DNA of 20,892 nt, from the IMG/VR virus record IMGVR_UViG_3300042006_000293, positions 1-20,892 of that record, one strand, 5' to 3'. Position numbers and translations under genes: made by a program. This DNA is from a virus. Under the pieces are notes generated by a model. That model did no database searches and was not told where the DNA came from. It saw nothing but the letters and a program-made list of their open reading frames with translations. Below are positions 10,909 to 19,740 of this stretch, one piece after another; within the stretch, counting starts at the first letter, position 1; each line of letters starts with the position of its first letter.

Positions 10909-11018
10909 AATTCTTCGGTGACTTGCTCATCGCTCAATCCTCCTAAAGGGAAGGGGCCTGCGGGAAAGTCGGGGCGGTTCAAACGTGTGATGGGCGGCTG
11001 GTGGCTAACGGAGTTGCT

Positions 11019-11900
11019 ATGAAGTCGAGTTTGCAGTCGTGCTCCAACTGGCGCCCTAGAAAAGATGTTGCTAATCGCAGTTCCGGCACGGATTTATCGC
11101 CCGTGAGTGATAGAGATGCGTCACACAACCAATTGATGTCTGACGCAGTTTCACCACAGGGCGTCGGTTTTTTTGGTCTCGATACCAAAAGTATCATTGG
11201 CGATGATGATCGGGACCCTGTAGCCAGCACCGTTAGCGCGCCGTGGCGAATGATTTGCTCCCTCGAGATCTGGTGGCCGGGAGCAGACGCTCCCGCCTAT
11301 GGCACGGGTTGGCTGGCGGGCCCAGCTCTCGTCGTCACCGCTGCCCACTGTGTGTTCGATCATCAACAAGGCCTCGGATGGGCGACGAAAATATCGGTCA
11401 CTCCAGGCCGTGATCGGAGCGAAGCCCCGTTCGGGAGCTACGATGCAAATCGCTTTTCCGCCACGAAGGCGTGGCAGAAAGTGCCCGGACGGAATGTAGA
11501 CATTGGCGCAATCCATCTCGACGACGACCTAGGGCGCGTCGTCGGTTGGTTCACGTACGGCATCAACGACCGGGTCATCGTCGGAGGCGAGCCGCTGACG
11601 ATCAGCGGATATTCTCGGCGAAGAGCCGTTCACTCTACCCAACAGCGAGCGTCTGGAGTTTCGGTTGGAGTGATCGAGGGTCGACTGTTTTACACCGTCG
11701 ACACTTTGGGAGGAGCGAGTGGTGCTCCGGTGCTGCTTGGAGCTGTCCAGGATGACTCCGATACACATGTTATTGCGGTACATACCGACGACGAGACTGC
11801 GGTCCCTCCGGAAATCGGAGTTGAGAGCAATTCTGGGCCGCTCCTCGTCCCGGAATGGACCACGCTGATTGAGCAGTGGAACGCATTAGTTCGAATATGA
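11019..11900 (+). CDS. Trypsin/V8-like serine protease (chymotrypsin clan PA)
   Basis: 293 residues from ATG 11019 (CGGAG just upstream; an in-frame GTG at 11001 is an alternative start). The catalytic triad is visible: His110 in VVTAAHC, Asp161 in NVDIGAIHL, and Ser234 in GGASGAPVL. SIIGDDDRDPVAS (about 58-70) resembles the start of the mature enzyme in glutamyl-endopeptidase-like proteases, which would make residues 1-58 a pro-region. No hydrophobic signal peptide is seen, which is odd for this family; it may act in the cytoplasm, be exported another way, or be wrongly started. The stop is 18 bases before a lipoprotein gene with its own Shine-Dalgarno, so the two and the following small gene form an operon. 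Confidence 0.85.
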   Translation: MKSSLQSCSNWRPRKDVANRSSGTDLSPVSDRDASHNQLMSDAVSPQGVGFFGLDTKSIIGDDDRDPVASTVSAPWRMICSLEIWWPGADAPAYGTGWLAGPALVVTAAHCVFDHQQGLGWATKISVTPGRDRSEAPFGSYDANRFSATKAWQKVPGRNVDIGAIHLDDDLGRVVGWFTYGINDRVIVGGEPLTISGYSRRRAVHSTQQRASGVSVGVIEGRLFYTVDTLGGASGAPVLLGAVQDDSDTHVIAVHTDDETAVPPEIGVESNSGPLLVPEWTTLIEQWNALVRI

Positions 11901-11918: not shown

Positions 11919-13541
11919 ATGTTCCGGAACCTGAGCATTCATTTTTGTGCGGTAGTAGCGCTAACGACATTGGCGGGATGCGATAAGCCCGAAATTTCAG
12001 CCGCGGCACTAGAGTCGCGAGGGGGGGCGCAAGAGTCTGCGAGCTCAACCGGGCCGGTACGGATACTTAGCGCATTGCCCCCTCCGGGAACAAGCACGAC
12101 AGAGGCGGACCGAGAGGGACGTCTTGCAATTAAACGCGGTGCAGACTATGTGCCCATCGATGAAGATCCTAAGGCTCTTTTCGACCGCCTGGAACGTGAC
12201 ATGTCGCAAAGGCGGCAAGCAGGTTGGAAGATTGTCGAATCGATGCTTGCGCCTCAAAAGCTGCAGGTCGATGGCATGACCATCGACGTGCCGCTGTGGC
12301 ACACGTGGTATGAGGGCGCGTCTGAGAACGCTGAAGTCAATTCGGTCATCGATTTGTATGTCGACAATCTCAAGAAATGTCGTGAGAGTAGCTGTGGCGA
12401 TCGTGAGACGAAGATCGCTGAGCGGACGTTGGTCGAGTATTCCACGAAGGATCTGGGCGAAAGCCTCACTCGTGCGAACATGAATCAGACATTGTTACAG
12501 CTGAAGAACCTTGAGGAGCCTGATCCAACTGGAAAGCGGGCGCATCTCGGGCAAGGCTTCACAATGTTCAGCCCGAGCTTCGTTGAGCACTTACTAACGC
12601 AGGCGCGTGGTATTGAGGGCTGTGCATTGCGCAGAGAGACTGCGGACACACCACCCCGCACAGCATCACAGTTTTCCTACTGCTTCGACGAGTTTCCTCG
12701 AAGCGCAGTAATGGTCAAGACGCAATGGTCATCGATTGACGATGGTAGCGAGGACCGGGCTTTCGACACCTCGGGGCCGGCGCTTGAGCGTCAGCTGGGT
12801 TCGCTGAACGGAAAATGGAATCCCGGTAAGTCGGCGGCACGTTCGACCAGCACGATGTACTCGGTAAAAACCAATGACGGGGGTACCTACGGCCTCAACG
12901 CAATCCATTTTTCCACCAAGGACACGCGCGAATGGATCTGGGTGACGTTGTGGTGGGATCCTCAGCCCAACAATGACTTCGGCGCGGATCGTCCGGCATC
13001 TATCAACGGATATAACCAAGGGGTCTGGCGAAACTACAAGATGTGTGTGACCAGTGCCTTCAACGAGATGGATCCCGCTCCGTGGAAAAGCTACGAGAAA
13101 GACTATCCGTCTCTCGCGGCATCAATCAAAGGGAGCTTTAACGCAATGTCGTCGGCGGCGAAAGCGAGTTCACCGCCTTTTGATAAGGTCACCAGTTGGT
13201 GTAGTAATCCTTACGTAGAACGGCAAATCAACAACGACAAGACAAACTGCATTGGCTGTCACCAATACTCAATTACATGGTCGGAGGCCACCAGCATCTC
13301 GCCTGCTCGTAAAGTGGATTTCGCAGACAGCATTTGGCTCCTTCCTGATAGACCTCAGCCGCCGATTCCCGAGAAAAGCCGAGCCGACTACGCGAAGCAT
13401 TTCCCTCAGCTGGGTCGATCGCGAATCCGCAACAACTTCCCGGCAGACTTCGCATGGTCGACGGACCTCGAGTTCCCGGAACAAATTACGAACGCCCGTA
13501 AAGAGCATCACTTTGAATGGGATGCCAAGGAGAGTGATTAA
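11919..13541 (+). CDS. Large lipoprotein with single CxxCH haem-binding motif
   Basis: 540 residues. MFRNLSIHFCAVVALTTLAG-C is a lipoprotein signal with lipobox LAGC and lipidation at Cys21. The mature protein has no repeats or membrane spans. Around 335-345 it reads REWIWVTLWWDP, and at 444-448 NCIGCHQ supplies one c-type haem attachment site, followed by WSEATSISPARKVDFADSIW. A further seven Cys (for example C154, C159, C235, C255, C376, C428) suggest disulfides. The product is probably an envelope-anchored redox or sensory protein; I cannot name its family. The start has AAAGGGAGA upstream. One base separates its stop from the next ATG, so translation is coupled. Confidence 0.75.
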   Translation: MFRNLSIHFCAVVALTTLAGCDKPEISAAALESRGGAQESASSTGPVRILSALPPPGTSTTEADREGRLAIKRGADYVPIDEDPKALFDRLERDMSQRRQAGWKIVESMLAPQKLQVDGMTIDVPLWHTWYEGASENAEVNSVIDLYVDNLKKCRESSCGDRETKIAERTLVEYSTKDLGESLTRANMNQTLLQLKNLEEPDPTGKRAHLGQGFTMFSPSFVEHLLTQARGIEGCALRRETADTPPRTASQFSYCFDEFPRSAVMVKTQWSSIDDGSEDRAFDTSGPALERQLGSLNGKWNPGKSAARSTSTMYSVKTNDGGTYGLNAIHFSTKDTREWIWVTLWWDPQPNNDFGADRPASINGYNQGVWRNYKMCVTSAFNEMDPAPWKSYEKDYPSLAASIKGSFNAMSSAAKASSPPFDKVTSWCSNPYVERQINNDKTNCIGCHQYSITWSEATSISPARKVDFADSIWLLPDRPQPPIPEKSRADYAKHFPQLGRSRIRNNFPADFAWSTDLEFPEQITNARKEHHFEWDAKESD

Positions 13542-13886: not shown

Positions 13887-13938
13887 CAGCCGACGTCCCT
13901 GCCTCCGGGCCTTCGGCCCTCCGGCAGGGCCGCGGCTG
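13887..13938. repeat. Nested GC-rich inverted repeat (cruciform/hairpin)
   Basis: Three nested arm pairs: CAGCCG/CGGCTG (13887-13892, 13933-13938), CCCTGCC/GGCAGGG (13897-13903, 13923-13929) and GGGCC/GGCCC around TTC (13907-13911, 13915-13919). Right after it is a perfect GCTCAC-TTC-GTGAGC (13941-13955). It lies 75 bases past the end of the protease operon and could stop transcription or stabilise the 3' end, but there is no T-run. Confidence 0.7.
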
Positions 13939-14015
13939 ACGCTCACTTCGTGAGCTGGACATCCAAAAGCTGCGCTTTCGGCCGCCCGTTAGCTTAATCG
14001 TTTGCGTCCGTTTTT

Positions 14016-14062
14016 GGCCGCTTTCAGCCGGTCGCGACAGGCTGAAATCGGCCATAAGCAGT
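14016..14062 (+). repeat. Dispersed intergenic hairpin repeat, copy A
   Basis: GGCCGCTTTCAGCC (14016-14029), loop GGTCGCGACA, GGCTGAAATCGGCC (14040-14053); 13 of 14 stem positions pair. Followed by ATAAGCAGTCAGTCGG. The same unit, with the sequence ARATCGGCCAWAAG, recurs around 18631, 19672 and 20071, and a relative lies at 17890-17997. GGCC at 14050-14053 is the empty counterpart of the insertion target of the miniature elements further on. Confidence 0.75.
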
Positions 14063-14093
14063 CAGTCGGAAATGTCCACGAAACCATGGGCGA

Positions 14094-14177
14094 TTCATCA
14101 CAATTTTGAACGTCATCAAGATCGCCGAAGCACTAGATATAAAGCCTTCAGCCCTACTAGAAATAGCAGGGCTATAG
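14094..14177 (+). pseudogene. 3' remnant of an XRE-family (helix-turn-helix) regulator
   Basis: In one frame the sequence reads FITILNVIKIAEALDIKPSA then LLEIAGL and TAG at 14175-14177. This is typical of the end of XRE/Cro-type HTH domains (TLLKIAKALDVEPSELL). The N-terminal part, including the recognition helix, is absent; the frame is broken just after the hairpin repeat at 14016-14062. It is convergent with the helicase-nuclease gene, with 27 bases between stops. A weak hairpin AGCCCT...AGGGCT (14150-14173) overlaps its end. It may be the last piece of a former regulator of the neighbouring gene. Confidence 0.55.
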
Positions 14178-14204
14178 GTCTCACAAATTTCTCTTAGAAA
14201 CTAA

Positions 14205-17102
14205 TCAATTATACAAACGAAATGGCAGATCTTCTGCGACGGCTTGCCCTGGAGTGCAGAGCCACTGCCACACTTGTTGTTGTGTTAGGCTTCCCTCGCA
14301 CAATCGCAATAGAGCCTCACCCAAATCCCCGCTTTCAACTACGCTTAACCGGCCACAGGATGCAATTTGTTGTGGCACACTCGGATCTACTCCGGGATGG
14401 CAAAGAGTCACGCAAAAACAATCTCTAAAGCTATGAATTTCGGAGGCCGCTAAAACCTCAACCGCTTTATTGTAATCGACAAGCTTATCTCCCTCTTTCG
14501 ATTTTAGCTCGACCACAACCGAAGGCGAATCGAAGAATTTGACTAGATAGTCGGGCGCGCCAGTTTTTGTCTTGTCATCTAATTTCTCAAACGCTACACC
14601 TAGCTGAACAAGCACCTGTTCGAACGCCACTTCAAACGCATCACCTTTTGCCTCATAATAGTTCTCAATTAGAACCTTGCTATCGCATCTGCTAGCTCGT
14701 TTTAGATGCCTAACAGACATTCGCTTCCGCTGGTCAACTTTCCAATCTCGACAAGCGTCTCGTACCCAATTTGCTTTAGCTTGCGCATTAGGTTTAGATT
14801 TTACAAAAGCTAAAACTCTTGCTGAATTCGCCTCAGGACTGCCAAGCATAAGCAATTGCGGCGTTGTGACTCCATGGTACTTCAAGAGTAACATTTCATG
14901 CCTATACAGCTTTAAAGTACTACCCGTCGCAGATACCCCTGTCATCCAGAGAATGTCGTCCGGCAATCCCTCTTGGACTCTGTATGCTAATCTTCGAATG
15001 TAGCGCGTCAGCTTAGATATAGCTCGCAGCAAAGTATCATCCACTCTTAATTGTGGCGGACGAAGAACTGGCGGCACGCGCTTATCGGCGGCGGACATAG
15101 CTATCCCAGCTAAGCCCTGTAGGACCCAGGATAGGTTTCTGTTCATTTCTTTGACAGCGCCAGCACTCAGAGATTTAACTTCACGCTCAATTGCCCTAAT
15201 CTCAACACCGCTAGTCCATTTCTGGCACAACCATGCCGCATTAGTAGGTACTGGATCAACTTGCCAAATTGATTCCATTAGGTCATCTGCGAGGTGCTGC
15301 GCATCATAAATGGGATCTTTCAACTGATAAGGCAGAAACCGAGTAGGTTTAACTCCATTTCTCGGACGAAACTCAGGGCTGGATAAGCATGCGGAAAAGA
15401 TAAGCATCTCTAGCCTGGACTTGAGATCCGCCGATTCAAGATGCCCAATGAGCTCTGCCAAATAAAGTGATTTCCTAGACAGAAAGTTGATTAAAAACAC
15501 CCCAGTTTCAGGTAGCAAACCACTGAACCCGACCGCTCGCCCCACTGGCGTAGGGCTTAGGTCCCCACCAGATGTTTCAACGACGAAGCCAGCATCAATC
15601 AACCCGGCCAGAGCAACCCCGACTTTACTCGGCCACGTCTTAAATGCAGTTAAGTTGTTATCTTCTTCCCTTAACGCACTGAACGTTGTGCAAACAAGCT
15701 CTTCAAGCTCGGCTCTGTTGTTGCACAACCCTGAAGATATCAGTTGCAGTGAAAGCTGACCGAACCTAGCAGGCACAATTCGCGCTTTGATTTCAGGAAG
15801 CTGCTCTATTGATAGATAACTTGTAGCTAATGCGCGTTGCGGCCCGGTACCAAAATATATTACACGCCCTTCTGCATGTTCAAACCCCATACGCCCGACC
15901 CGCCCGGACATGTTGTGGAACTCTGCGCTATCTATTGCGACATACTGCCTTTGCTGGCCGTCCCAACGTTCCCAATTAGCAAATACTGCTGCCCCTAGAG
16001 GGAAATTCACACCTGCTGCTAAAGTACTTGTAGCAAATACAACATCCAGCTTATTTTCTGACAAGTAGCGTTCCACTACTCCTCGCTCTTCGTCAGTCAA
16101 ATCCGCATTATGACTCGCAACTCGGAGATCCAGTATCTTCGCCAGCATCGTGTTAGCTGAAGTTTCAGGCAAGGTATCAAATTCTAACGACAACTGTCCT
16201 TGCTTACCCTTGTGGTACGAAGCTACAAAAGCCTCGGCAAGATCATAAGTATCTTGCTTTTTCATGCAAAAAACTATGATTGGAAGCGGTGGATTATCGT
16301 GCTTAAGCAGATATGTTAAAGCTGAAATCGTTTCCGCTTTAACTCCAGCAGGCAGTCGCTTGTCCGATTCCATCACATCAGGTTTCGCACTGCTTACTGA
16401 ATAAATCTGATCGCCAATCCAGCATTCATACCGTAAATGTTTCTCACGCTTTTGCTCGAAAATAAGCTGAACCCGCAGCCAGTTCGCTAAGTCCTGGGCG
16501 TCCTTGCTTTTTAAAACTGCTGACAATCCTACAAACTGTTTCCAACCCGCGTTCCGCATAAGTGTTAAAAGGACTTCAACATTCTGCCCGCGGTTTTCGT
16601 CTCCCATCAGCTGAATTTCATCGCACACGACAATCGTATTTTGCATGCTTTTCGGCACCCCAGATGCCGACAGTAGCGCTAAATATTTTTCATATGTAGC
16701 AATTACCAGAGGAGCACTTAGAGGAGCCGCAGAATACTGTCCCGTGGCATCTTCGACGTAGTCCCCCGTGGCAATAACTATGGAAGCACCATCGCTCTCC
16801 AAATATCTGTCCAACAACAACGTTTTGAAGTCTTCAAATTTCTGCTTGGCCAGTGCGCGATGGGTCACCAAATAAACTGTTTTATTCCCAGCGAGCAGTC
16901 CTTCAGCAATAGCCCAGAGCCCAATTTGAGTCTTTCCCGTTGAGGTAGGAGAAACCACCAGCATGCTTTGTCCATGCGCCACGCCAGACTCCAACGCGAG
17001 GTACTGAACATCAGTGAGGGAAATCGCCCCCTCGGATCGGTAGACCAACCCATCGGCCACAGATGCGGACAGACCGTGTTCTACTGGAAAGGTATCCCTC
17101 AT
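14205..17102 (-). CDS. Ski2/Hel308-like DExx-box helicase fused to C-terminal PD-(D/E)XK nuclease
   Basis: 965 residues from ATG 17102, which has AGGAG at 8-9 bases; an in-frame TTG at 17111 abuts that site and is unlikely. SF2 motifs in order: Q-like TDVQYLAL (about 30-37), Walker A SPTSTGKT (51-58), Ia VTHRALAKQ (79-87), DEIQ box (161-164), III GLSAVL (192-197), RVASHNADL (327-335), V ATSTLAAGVNFPLG (357-370), and VI NMSGRVGRMGF (397-407). DEIQ rather than DExH is unusual. A winged-helix/helical region follows. Near the C-terminus KGDAFEVAFEQVL (Glu824 or Glu828), GAPDYLV (Asp851) and VVVELKSK (Glu865, Lys867) form a PD-(D/E)XK nuclease core. The protein would unwind and cut nucleic acid. 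Its composition is more AT-rich than the neighbours, indicating horizontal transfer. A single-protein anti-phage helicase-nuclease is the favoured guess; a DNA repair enzyme is the alternative. Confidence 0.88.
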   Translation of the reverse strand: MRDTFPVEHGLSASVADGLVYRSEGAISLTDVQYLALESGVAHGQSMLVVSPTSTGKTQIGLWAIAEGLLAGNKTVYLVTHRALAKQKFEDFKTLLLDRYLESDGASIVIATGDYVEDATGQYSAAPLSAPLVIATYEKYLALLSASGVPKSMQNTIVVCDEIQLMGDENRGQNVEVLLTLMRNAGWKQFVGLSAVLKSKDAQDLANWLRVQLIFEQKREKHLRYECWIGDQIYSVSSAKPDVMESDKRLPAGVKAETISALTYLLKHDNPPLPIIVFCMKKQDTYDLAEAFVASYHKGKQGQLSLEFDTLPETSANTMLAKILDLRVASHNADLTDEERGVVERYLSENKLDVVFATSTLAAGVNFPLGAAVFANWERWDGQQRQYVAIDSAEFHNMSGRVGRMGFEHAEGRVIYFGTGPQRALATSYLSIEQLPEIKARIVPARFGQLSLQLISSGLCNNRAELEELVCTTFSALREEDNNLTAFKTWPSKVGVALAGLIDAGFVVETSGGDLSPTPVGRAVGFSGLLPETGVFLINFLSRKSLYLAELIGHLESADLKSRLEMLIFSACLSSPEFRPRNGVKPTRFLPYQLKDPIYDAQHLADDLMESIWQVDPVPTNAAWLCQKWTSGVEIRAIEREVKSLSAGAVKEMNRNLSWVLQGLAGIAMSAADKRVPPVLRPPQLRVDDTLLRAISKLTRYIRRLAYRVQEGLPDDILWMTGVSATGSTLKLYRHEMLLLKYHGVTTPQLLMLGSPEANSARVLAFVKSKPNAQAKANWVRDACRDWKVDQRKRMSVRHLKRASRCDSKVLIENYYEAKGDAFEVAFEQVLVQLGVAFEKLDDKTKTGAPDYLVKFFDSPSVVVELKSKEGDKLVDYNKAVEVLAASEIHSFRDCFCVTLCHPGVDPSVPQQIASCGRLSVVESGDLGEALLRLCEGSLTQQQVWQWLCTPGQAVAEDLPFRLYN

Positions 17103-17504
17103 GCCTAGCAACTCCTGTCATGCGTTTGGGTGCAAGCGCCCAGAGCAATCTGGGCGCCGAGTGTCCGAATCCGGCAGAAGCATACGTAGCATTAAATGGC
17201 CATATTGGCCATCCTACTAAGCGTCAGAGCGGCAATCTGGGAAAAACAGGGCGGTAAAATGCATAGCTATATAATCTGTAACTACATAATTTTTAATAGA
17301 ATTACACTGGATCATGTGGTGGATTCGCTTTTCCCGGCCACCACTTTAAATCGCTCCTAGTTTCTCAGAGACCGAATGACTGGTTCTGGCCGATAGCTGC
17401 CTGTGGCGCGTCGCCAGACTGGCCCCTGAGACTCTGGTAATGATAGAACCATCAGCTGAATTCACCTCGACATGACTGTCGCCGGGCTTTTTGTGTGCAA
17501 TCGG
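17103..17504. other. Intergenic region upstream of the helicase-nuclease gene
   Basis: No gene. It contains the helicase 5' leader, a palindrome at 17196-17212, an AT-rich stretch (17260-17305) suited to a promoter, and an inverted pair GTGGTGG/CCACCAC (17316-17322, 17338-17344). A plus-strand hairpin CGACA-TGAC-TGTCG followed by CCGGGCTTTTTG (17467-17493) has a terminator shape without a gene on its upstream side, so it may be the end of a lost gene. Confidence 0.5.
17196..17212. promoter_or_regulatory. Palindromic operator candidate upstream of helicase-nuclease gene
   Basis: ATGGCCA-TAT-TGGCCAT, perfect 7-base arms with a 3-base centre, 94 bases before the ATG at 17102. A dyad of this size is typical for a dimeric HTH repressor. 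The XRE remnant at the gene's other end could once have been the partner. Confidence 0.4.
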
Positions 17505-17720
17505 TTAACCGATGTCCAATTTCTTCAATCGAGCCAGGCCTTGTTTGATATGGCCGGCGTTTTCACCCATGGTCCACAGTGCTCCACGGACATTTCCCCC
17601 CACGTCCTGCGCCCCTTGCTCCTCAACCAGGAGGGTCAACTCCATAATAGCCGCCTGCAGAGCCTCCTGATTTTCGTACAGCCTTTCCAGTACATCCGAC
17701 AGTGAATAATCACCAGGCAT
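17505..17720 (-). CDS. Short helical protein, unknown; paralogue of the 19782-20000 product
   Basis: 71 residues starting MPGDYSLSDVLERLYENQEA. ATG 17720 has AAAGGAG nine bases upstream. Nearly all of it is predicted helix: NQEALQAAIMELTLLVEEQG, then NVRGALWTMGENAGHIKQGL. It aligns without gaps to the product of 19782-20000 over the pattern NQxA-(x)2-A-x-E, G, N-x(3)-AL-x(3)-NA. No membrane segment, no Cys. The family is not recognised by function; small helical proteins of this pattern are frequent around repeats in Pseudomonas accessory DNA. Confidence 0.7.
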   Translation of the reverse strand: MPGDYSLSDVLERLYENQEALQAAIMELTLLVEEQGAQDVGGNVRGALWTMGENAGHIKQGLARLKKLDIG

Positions 17721-17889
17721 GACGTCGACTCCTTTCAATAAAAGCACAAGCATAGTACCGGCTGTGCCCATGTCAGGCAGTAATTGCAGCTTGCTTAGAA
17801 ATTGCTACAAAGCGAAGAAGTCGCAGCGGATTAGCCTGTCTGGCTGGGGCGTTGGGGGAGTGCTACGCCCAATCCATCATTGGAGAAAG

Positions 17890-17997
17890 TGAGGGACTGC
17901 TTTCGGCCAGAAGCAGACGTTCGATCCAAAGCTGCTTTCGAGCAGAAGCAAACGTCGCTAAGCAGCGGCCAGCGAGCCGCTGCAGAAATCGGCCGTC
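17890..17997 (+). repeat. Degenerate intergenic hairpin repeats
   Basis: CTGCTTTCGGCCAGAAGCAG (17898-17917) is echoed by CTGCTTTCGAGCAGAAGCA about 33 bases later, each able to fold on itself. A perfect hairpin GCAGCGG-CCAGCGAG-CCGCTGC (17961-17982) follows, and the block ends in GCAGAAATCGGCC, the core of the dispersed repeat seen at 14040, 18657 and 19700. The rest of the 17721-18128 gap has no gene that I can support. Confidence 0.6.
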
Positions 17998-18128
17998 CTG
18001 CTACCCTCTTTACCTAGTCGGGCCTGCTGTCACCCCTGTCGCGTTACCCTTTGATAGATCTCGCGCTTACTGCGACAAGGAACGCGACATGGCATGTCCA
18101 CCGAATGAGAGAGTGTCAGGATATCGCC

Positions 18129-18488
18129 ATGAAAGTTCGATGCCCTAGCTGTGATTATATCGCAGACAAGCTTCCGCCAAGCCTTAGGTGTCCTAAATGC
18201 GACGATTTTTCCCACAACTGGCTGATTTATGATTGGGAAAGCTTTGCTTCAATGAAGCGTCGACATATTAGATATAACCTGTTCATTATTGGCATAGTTC
18301 TAATTAATTTACTTGTGGCGATCACCTTGAAATCAACAAATGCGTTTCAATGGTTGTTCAGCTTGTTATTTATTCCAGCCATTATCAGTTTGTTTTATTG
18401 TCGAAAGCAGCTTGAAAGTGAATCGGAGTATGAGGGACATAGAGACAAGGCTTTACTTTTCTGGCTTTTCTATTTCGGGGGTATCTAA
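18129..18488 (+). CDS. Small zinc-ribbon membrane protein
   Basis: 119 residues starting MKVRCPSCDYIADKLPPSLR. The first 25 residues have two CxxC knuckles (C5-x2-C8 and C21-x2-C24) that would bind one zinc ion. Two transmembrane segments follow (about 51-68, LFIIGIVLINLLVAITL; about 73-93, FQWLFSLLFIPAIISLFYC), and a third hydrophobic stretch ends the protein (LLFWLFYFGG). The start has CAGGA at seven bases. This zinc-ribbon-plus-membrane layout occurs in many small stress or envelope proteins; no function can be named. Past the stop the same frame runs on to another coding-like segment (see rejected items), so the C-terminus may be shortened. Confidence 0.7.
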   Translation: MKVRCPSCDYIADKLPPSLRCPKCDDFSHNWLIYDWESFASMKRRHIRYNLFIIGIVLINLLVAITLKSTNAFQWLFSLLFIPAIISLFYCRKQLESESEYEGHRDKALLFWLFYFGGI

Positions 18489-18624
18489 AGCGGCTAACAA
18501 GTCGTCAGTGCGATTGCATTCTATCTGGCCGGTGTTGGGCGTGCTCGCCCTGACCACTCTATAGTTCGCGCAATAGGGCCAGTCGTTCATGAACCGTGGC
18601 AGGTGCCTGCCAGCAGTGAATGGC

Positions 18625-18669
18625 CGTAAAGGGTCGTTTTCAGCCGGTCGTGACAGGCAGAAATCGGCC
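18625..18669 (+). repeat. Dispersed intergenic hairpin repeat, copy B, interrupted by a miniature element
   Basis: GGGTCGTTTTCAGCCGGTCG then TGACAGGCAGAAATCGGCC, matching the copies at 14016 and 19672. It is cut at GGCC (18666-18669) by the miniature element, and its other part resumes at 18798 (GGCCAAAAGCAGCCAGTTGC). Confidence 0.75.
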
Positions 18670-18797
18670 CAGAGTGTGTAAAAACGCTTCGCCAAAATTG
18701 AAGTGTGCGCGTCAGCAGATGTGGATTTCGCGTAGAACGCGATTTGCAGTCCGGTTTTGAGTACCTATCGCACTCAAAAACGTTTTTACACAGCCTC
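18670..18797 (+). mobile_element. Miniature inverted-repeat element (MITE), copy 1, 128 bases
   Basis: Ends: CAGAGTGTGTAAAAACG (18670-18686) and, read on the other strand, GAGGCTGTGTAAAAACG; 14 of 17 bases match. It is flanked by GGCC on both sides (18666-18669 and 18798-18801), which fits a 4-base target duplication. It has no open reading frame. The interior matches the inverted copy at 20087-20245, but about 31 bases are missing after GCGCGTC (around 18711). A full-length IS sharing these ends must supply the transposase; none is in the window. Confidence 0.8.
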
Positions 18798-18864
18798 GGC
18801 CAAAAGCAGCCAGTTGCGATCGGCTGCAAACGGTCAGCGACTTGCTGCTTGGCCATGGCAGAGT

Positions 18865-19671: not shown

Positions 19672-19740
19672 TTCGGGTCGTTTTCTGCCCCTCGCAACAG
19701 GCAGAAATCGGCCAAAAGTGGTCAGTCACGATTGGTCGCA
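19672..19740 (+). repeat. Dispersed intergenic hairpin repeat, copy C (uninterrupted)
   Basis: CGGGTCGTTTTCTGCC (about 19675-19689) pairs, with two mismatches, with GGCAGAAATCGGCC (19700-19713); AAAAGTGGTCAGTCACGATT follows. This copy shows the intact joint AAATCGGCCAAAAG with a single GGCC, the empty form of the site that carries MITE copy 1. Confidence 0.75.

Follow-up and report, generated by a model that had tools for sequence, protein, structure and literature searches.

What is a gene that joins a DNA helicase to a nuclease in one chain doing on a viral sequence record, and what might it be for? The stretch of DNA analysed here, referred to as the window, is a complete IMG/VR virus record of 20,892 bases, the first 7.7 kb of which carry head-closure, tape-measure, tail, endolysin, spanin and Dam-methylase genes. 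The helicase-nuclease gene, P0001, is situated well outside this block in DNA of lower GC content (0.46–0.49, compared with about 0.60–0.67 in the phage-tail part); the low GC is as the original prediction had described. It is one intact minus-strand open reading frame of 965 amino acids plus stop, located exactly where a single helicase-nuclease chain had been expected (Table 1). Sequence and predicted structure establish its anatomy and mobility, and its role and mechanism are inferred: the gene is rather likely to be a single-gene, horizontally mobile system of defence against phages and/or plasmids, and as such is probably an undescribed candidate.

Our reading of the sequence places AGGAG about 10 nt 5' of the ATG at 17102, which makes the TTG at 17111 preferred by the ORF caller an unlikely start. 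An Rfam scan of the window gave no matches, and promoter and terminator predictions were without excess over shuffled sequence. Elsewhere in the window, a trypsin-like protease gene (11001-11900) is followed by a gene for a 540-residue protein with no confident Pfam match (11919-13541).

Table 1. Features of the helicase-nuclease gene and its mobile unit (window coordinates).
Feature	Position	Strand	Basis or remark
Helicase-nuclease gene P0001	14205..17102	-	ATG at 17102, TGA at 14205-14207; dN/dS 0.07-0.13 among Pseudomonas copies
Hel308-type SF2 helicase, residues 1-788	14739..17102	-	AlphaFold2 model, 2p6r match, NCBIfam Hel308-type models
Motif I (Walker A) TSTGKT, residues 53-58	16929..16946	-	T53, G56, K57 and T58 in 23/23 rows with letters
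Motif II (Walker B) DEIQ, residues 161-164	16611..16622	-	D161, E162 and Q164 invariant 24/24
PD-(D/E)XK nuclease domain, FokI-cleavage-domain-like, residues 792-965	14208..14729	-	AlphaFold2 and structure comparison
Predicted catalytic residues (set)	14502..14633	-	invariant 24/24
Predicted catalytic E824	14631-14633	-	invariant 24/24
Predicted catalytic D842	14577-14579	-	invariant 24/24
Predicted catalytic D851	14550-14552	-	invariant 24/24
Predicted catalytic E865	14508-14510	-	invariant 24/24
Predicted catalytic K867	14502-14504	-	invariant 24/24
Mobile unit of ~3.34 kb with the helicase-nuclease gene, without transposase	14049..17392		ends common to window, L005, L006, L009, L010, L017; left end in L008
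Terminal inverted repeat, gene's 5' side, CGGCCAGAACCAGTCATTCGG	17372..17392	-	imperfect
Terminal inverted repeat, gene's 3' side, CGGCCATAAGCAGTCAGTCGG	14049..14069	+	18/21 match to other end
Imperfect palindrome of ~58 bp across the unit's 3'-side end	14006..14063	+	fold -28.7 kcal/mol
Vestigial C-terminus of HTH (Xre-like) regulator, 24 residues, ILNVIKIAEALDIKPSALLEIAGL	14103..14177	+	HTH call from reading the sequence

A Hel308-type helicase

Pfam recognizes DEAD (1.5e-18) and Helicase_C (3.4e-6) in the protein, and a full-length AlphaFold2 model built with a 24-row family alignment (pLDDT 87, pTM 0.86) extends this to a complete motor. Residues 11-788 superpose on DNA-bound Archaeoglobus Hel308 (2p6r) with Z 34.9 over 660 of 683 residues at 3.0 Å, and the five-domain Hel308 fold is present; the structural matches that follow include Pol-theta, Ski2/Mtr4 and Brr2 helicases. 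HamB entries are absent from the 50 best matches to the full model, a listing that leaves similarity possible. NCBIfam Hel308-type models also match (best E 3e-54), yet under their equivalog cut-offs, the curated Hel308 equivalog NF040935 scoring 120 bits where 1200 are required; judged by these profiles, the helicase part is a relative of Hel308 and not an orthologue. Motif I, the DE(I/V/L)Q box and motifs V and VI are invariant in every alignment row with letters there, and the DEIQ box is found as the prediction had described it. The same prediction, of a Ski2/Hel308-like helicase with Hachiman kinship, stands as to an SF2 helicase of Hel308 type and is refined as to kinship, since profiles, structure and phylogeny all place it nearer Hel308 than HamB.

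A complete Hel308 fold could also belong to an enzyme of replication or recombination repair that travels as accessory cargo and aids its element or host at stalled forks, and Hel308/HELQ biology as known is that of fork repair. We consider such a role improbable in view of the fused FokI-like nuclease, the extreme sporadicity of the family, its defence-gene neighbours and its existence as a stand-alone mobile unit confined to no single replicon type, all described below.

A FokI-like nuclease domain

No Pfam family covers the C-terminus of the protein and searching the PDB with the sequence of this region gave nothing useful, so the domain is identified by structure comparison alone. Folded on their own, residues 792-965 form a separate PD-(D/E)XK domain in the AlphaFold2 model (pLDDT 90.3, pTM 0.88), the fold that had been predicted for this region. 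In structure it comes closest to the FokI cleavage domain (Z 14.3, 155 residues, 2.6 Å, 13% identity), followed by the BspD6I subunits (small subunit Z 11.7) and HindIII. The NUC domain of Hna scores Z 8.9 (140 residues, 3.8 Å) and the type IIS enzyme PaqCI only Z 5.2, far below FokI; DdmD nuclease domains are among the weak matches.

The active-site residues are invariant across a 24-sequence family whose members share 32-97% identity with the query, and for the originally proposed D851, E865 and K867 this constancy is far beyond chance. Judged from fold and spacing, the catalytic residues are expected to superpose on the FokI PD...DxK triad. With the helicase motifs likewise conserved alongside E824, D842, D851, E865 and K867, both enzymatic centres look intact from the alignment.

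A mobile unit between palindromic repeats

Comparison of the window with six Pseudomonas loci reveals one common block of ~3.34 kb, sharply bounded at the same two points and with mostly unrelated flanks, which contains one gene and a dead HTH fragment (Table 1). The palindrome that had been noted upstream of the gene proved to be the terminal repeat of this unit; at the 3' side the unit's end forms one of the two arms of a ~58-bp palindrome. Matches to the arm consensus number 55, spread over 21 of 38 relatives, and a reversed-pattern control gave none. The palindromic repeat, with arm GNCTGCTTNTGGCCGATTNCTGCC, is of low copy number and marks the ends of gene units, lying in the window at 14006-14063, 17378-17423, 17895-17918, 18797-18811 and 19709-19723, and elsewhere at L010:7456-7513 and L067:4001-4058; locus L010 looks like an array of palindrome-bounded gene units. 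Another unit of that array was considered as a widespread cassette and rejected, as it has one partial relative only in 349 genomes. We also rejected the terminal repeat as a high-copy repeat: its short form is no more frequent than the reversed control, while the longer arm motif is real and low-copy.

Several unit ends bear traces of other elements. In both L005 and L010 a short repeat, GACTTTTTCAACAGAATCGGCC, abuts the unit in its flank, and in L005 and L009 the unit adjoins transposase genes or fragments; it is as if insertion sequences had landed mid-palindrome at the unit ends of L005, L009 and L010. An integron origin is unsupported, because the unit ends are CGGCCA repeats and not an attC core site. 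An attC-like stretch does lie just outside the unit. This stretch, adjoining the unit at window positions 13895-14000, includes 39 bp that are 89.7% identical to the intervening stretch between blaSIM-1 and aac(6')-Ib4 of a class 1 integron. On the other side, the adjacent stretches 17458-17883, 17995-18673 and 18666-18797 each recur separately in other Pseudomonas genomes, and at least one of them is present in 53 of 349 genomes. Small mobile units thus make up a mosaic on this side of the window, which agrees with the mobile surroundings that had been predicted.

The predicted regulator remnant is likewise present, as a vestigial HTH-like fragment that is retained in L006, L010 and L017 and has an internal stop in L005 and L009. 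Such a decayed fragment within the unit might indicate regulated, toxin-like cargo that lost its antitoxin or regulator in Pseudomonas, leaving the HTH remnant behind. We give this explanation very little credence: no regulator or antitoxin gene recurs beside the relatives, and intact copies under selection persist without one.

Distribution, selection and phylogeny

Scans for the family recovered 36 genome loci, together with viral contigs and two Cereibacter plasmids, from alpha-, beta- and gammaproteobacteria, Campylobacterota and Thermodesulfobacteriota (30-99% identity in the best segment). It is rare in a broad sample, with members in 3 of 399 Pseudomonas and 2 of 369 gammaproteobacterial genomes. 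These counts rule out a housekeeping role, and with it the possibility, raised by the original prediction against itself, that homologues are core genes of all pseudomonads. Among Pseudomonas copies dN/dS is 0.07-0.13 and is similar in the nuclease part, and this purifying selection indicates that both halves are kept functional.

Relatives reside on diverse elements: one is in a P. caricapapayae prophage between primase and terminase genes, one on a conjugative Cereibacter plasmid, and one on a contig that on our reading has filamentous-phage-like genes, while that of L005 is downstream of a glmS-like gene. On the Cereibacter plasmid (L003:16884-20685), the relative is followed by genes for a UvrD-like protein, a DarT-like ADP-ribosyltransferase and an ADP-ribosylglycohydrolase. 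The prophage, conjugative-plasmid and filamentous-phage-like carriers of these members, together with the weak structural matches to DdmD nuclease domains, would suit interference with plasmids or foreign DNA instead of phage defence, in which a DdmDE-like helicase-nuclease degrades plasmids or competing elements to the benefit of its carrier. DdmD belongs to a different SF2 group and requires the Argonaute DdmE, and no partner gene recurs at the family loci; we regard this alternative as unlikely, if worth keeping in mind.

A tree was computed from rows representing the family, HamB, PDC-M23B, caspase-helicase fusions and archaeal plasmid helicases. The family forms one clade (SH-aLRT 99) that joins the caspase-helicase fusions first (97) and then an archaeal helicase (98), apart from the HamB and PDC-M23B rows; because the tree is a quick one with several long branches, we take this placement as good evidence, short of proof. 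The two fusions, on an Agrobacterium pusense plasmid (L059:5158-8163) and a Hymenobacter plasmid (L060:5113-8163), are each a single gene encoding an N-terminal caspase-like Peptidase_C14 domain and a Hel308-side SF2 helicase. As the sister group of the helicase-nuclease family in this tree, they look like the same sensor with another effector.

Genomic neighbourhood

Neighbouring genes were scanned with PADLOC models at a cut-off of 1e-10, comparing the 123 nearest proteins with 100 outer-edge genes of the same loci. The tally was 69 PADLOC families for the nearest proteins versus 2 for the outer ones; merged to proteins, this corresponds to about 10-14 of 123 versus 1-2 of 100 (Fisher p 0.002-0.07), a modest count and an estimate on our part, since hits were tallied by family and not by protein. 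Among the genes identified are LmuA beside L012, the methylase and restriction genes of a type III pair beside L020, an LmuB/mad3-like gene beside L037 and PDC-M36A beside L013, and models of ThsB, DrmD and GajB type are also in the tally. The enrichment of defence genes near family members is suggestive and not conclusive; defence genes cluster with other cargo too. The nearest neighbours of the gene in the window include no known defence gene, with the Dam methylase 6.5 kb away. No neighbour or partner gene recurs across lineages among the family loci, which argues for a self-sufficient one-gene system.

Proposed mechanism

Pairings of a helicase with a nuclease figure prominently in bacterial immunity, where it is a central question by what means a general DNA motor distinguishes an invader from the cell's own DNA. 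FokI-type domains in isolation have little activity singly and must dimerise to cut duplex DNA, and on this ground two of the enzymes described here probably must meet for cleavage. We propose that the Hel308-like part would load on duplex DNA that is forked or in part single-stranded, for example the replication intermediates of phages or plasmids, and that its ATP-driven motor would track 3' to 5' on one strand and unwind the DNA, as expected from the 3'-5' unwinding preference of Hel308 (PMC12278908). From Hel308 work, the tracked strand should exit towards the end of the helicase at which the nuclease starts, so placed that the nuclease domain, tethered just past the last helicase domain, would meet the emerging strand or the duplex ahead. 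A need for dimers would restrain the nuclease at normal chromosomal forks and activate it where many forks or ends accumulate; licensing would thus occur where replication intermediates crowd, as in phage takeover. Such cleavage may destroy either the invader as it replicates or all cell DNA (abortive infection), as in Hachiman. The tracking direction, loading substrate and dimer requirement in this scheme are carried over by analogy from Hel308 and FokI, and we found no phenotype or biochemistry for any family member.

It is quite possible, if somewhat short of probable, that bacteria hold a Hel308/Pol-theta-type lineage as an immunity sensor motor with interchangeable effectors on the same chain, namely a C-terminal FokI-like nuclease here and an N-terminal caspase-like protease in L059 and L060. 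The nuclease branch would then provide fork- or ssDNA-sensing DNA destruction from one gene, in a minimal cassette between palindromic repeats. A fork helicase of Hel308 type, with its well-known structure and DNA path, joined to a FokI-like domain that normally dimerises, would offer a compact and directly testable answer to the question of self and invader.

Comparison with known systems

Hachiman pairs the nuclease HamA (DUF1837), a type IIS-like PD-(D/E)XK enzyme, with the Ski2-like helicase HamB (PMC12278908), and resembles the present family in teaming a Ski2-superfamily DNA helicase with a nuclease of that kind. Models of HamB recognize the helicase core (best 1.9e-29; hhalign 99% over 22-416), and together with the nature of HamA this might suggest a divergent Hachiman in which HamA has turned into the C-terminal domain of HamB. 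There is, however, no N-terminal helical region for HamA binding, as the alignment starts at HamB residue 220 and the family's RecA1 begins near residue 20, whereas the HamB of L044 has about 220 residues ahead of RecA1. No HamA was found among the ten window proteins scanned, the box is DEIQ and not DEGH, the tree position is with the archaeal helicase on the Hel308 side, and the nuclease is nearest FokI, with type IIS PaqCI far lower; a divergent Hachiman is accordingly disfavoured already, and we think it very unlikely. The PADLOC phage defence candidate PDC-M23B has a related helicase core (2.1e-28; hhalign 99.5% over 25-416), but it has about 300 extra N-terminal residues, lacks a matching nuclease C-terminus and is separate in the tree.

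The original prediction contrasted a single chain with paired systems, and this is correct with respect to Hachiman; the design is not itself new, as Hna of Sinorhizobium meliloti (PDB 9YKJ/9YHN) is a one-chain SF2 helicase-nuclease abortive infection system with a DinG-like motor (PMC13381803). Both are single genes for an SF2 helicase with a C-terminal PD-(D/E)XK nuclease, and the NUC folds are shared. Hna itself acts as a 3'-5' exonuclease on ssDNA that ATP inhibits and a phage SSB triggers. The sequence used for Hna is an 845-aa ORF on unannotated pSymA, assigned by size, position, helicase motif and an E-x-K near residue 729. Its motor is DinG/XPD-like, in contrast to the Hel308 fold here, and the two proteins lack significant similarity over their full length (BLASTP E 0.05; hhalign probability 36%, Walker region only). 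With HamA and the HamB N-terminal region absent and the Hna motor unrelated, the family belongs to neither Hachiman nor Hna. The openly licensed papers searched contain no description of a bacterial Hel308-FokI or Hel308-nuclease defence protein, and PADLOC 2.0.0 and the other libraries searched contain no dedicated model for the family, although one may exist elsewhere.

The FokI and BspD6I cleavage domains share with the C-terminal domain their fold and PD...(D/E)xK layout, at 13% identity, although here the nuclease is carried on a helicase and not on a sequence-specific DNA-binding domain. The archaeal Hel308/Hjm and the eukaryotic HELQ and Pol-theta helicases resemble the whole helicase part (660 residues at 3.0 Å); what differs is the added C-terminal nuclease and a bacterial, sporadic and mobile existence. 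Hel308 has been reported absent from bacteria (PMC12278908), and a Hel308/HELQ/Pol-theta-like helicase is now placed there.
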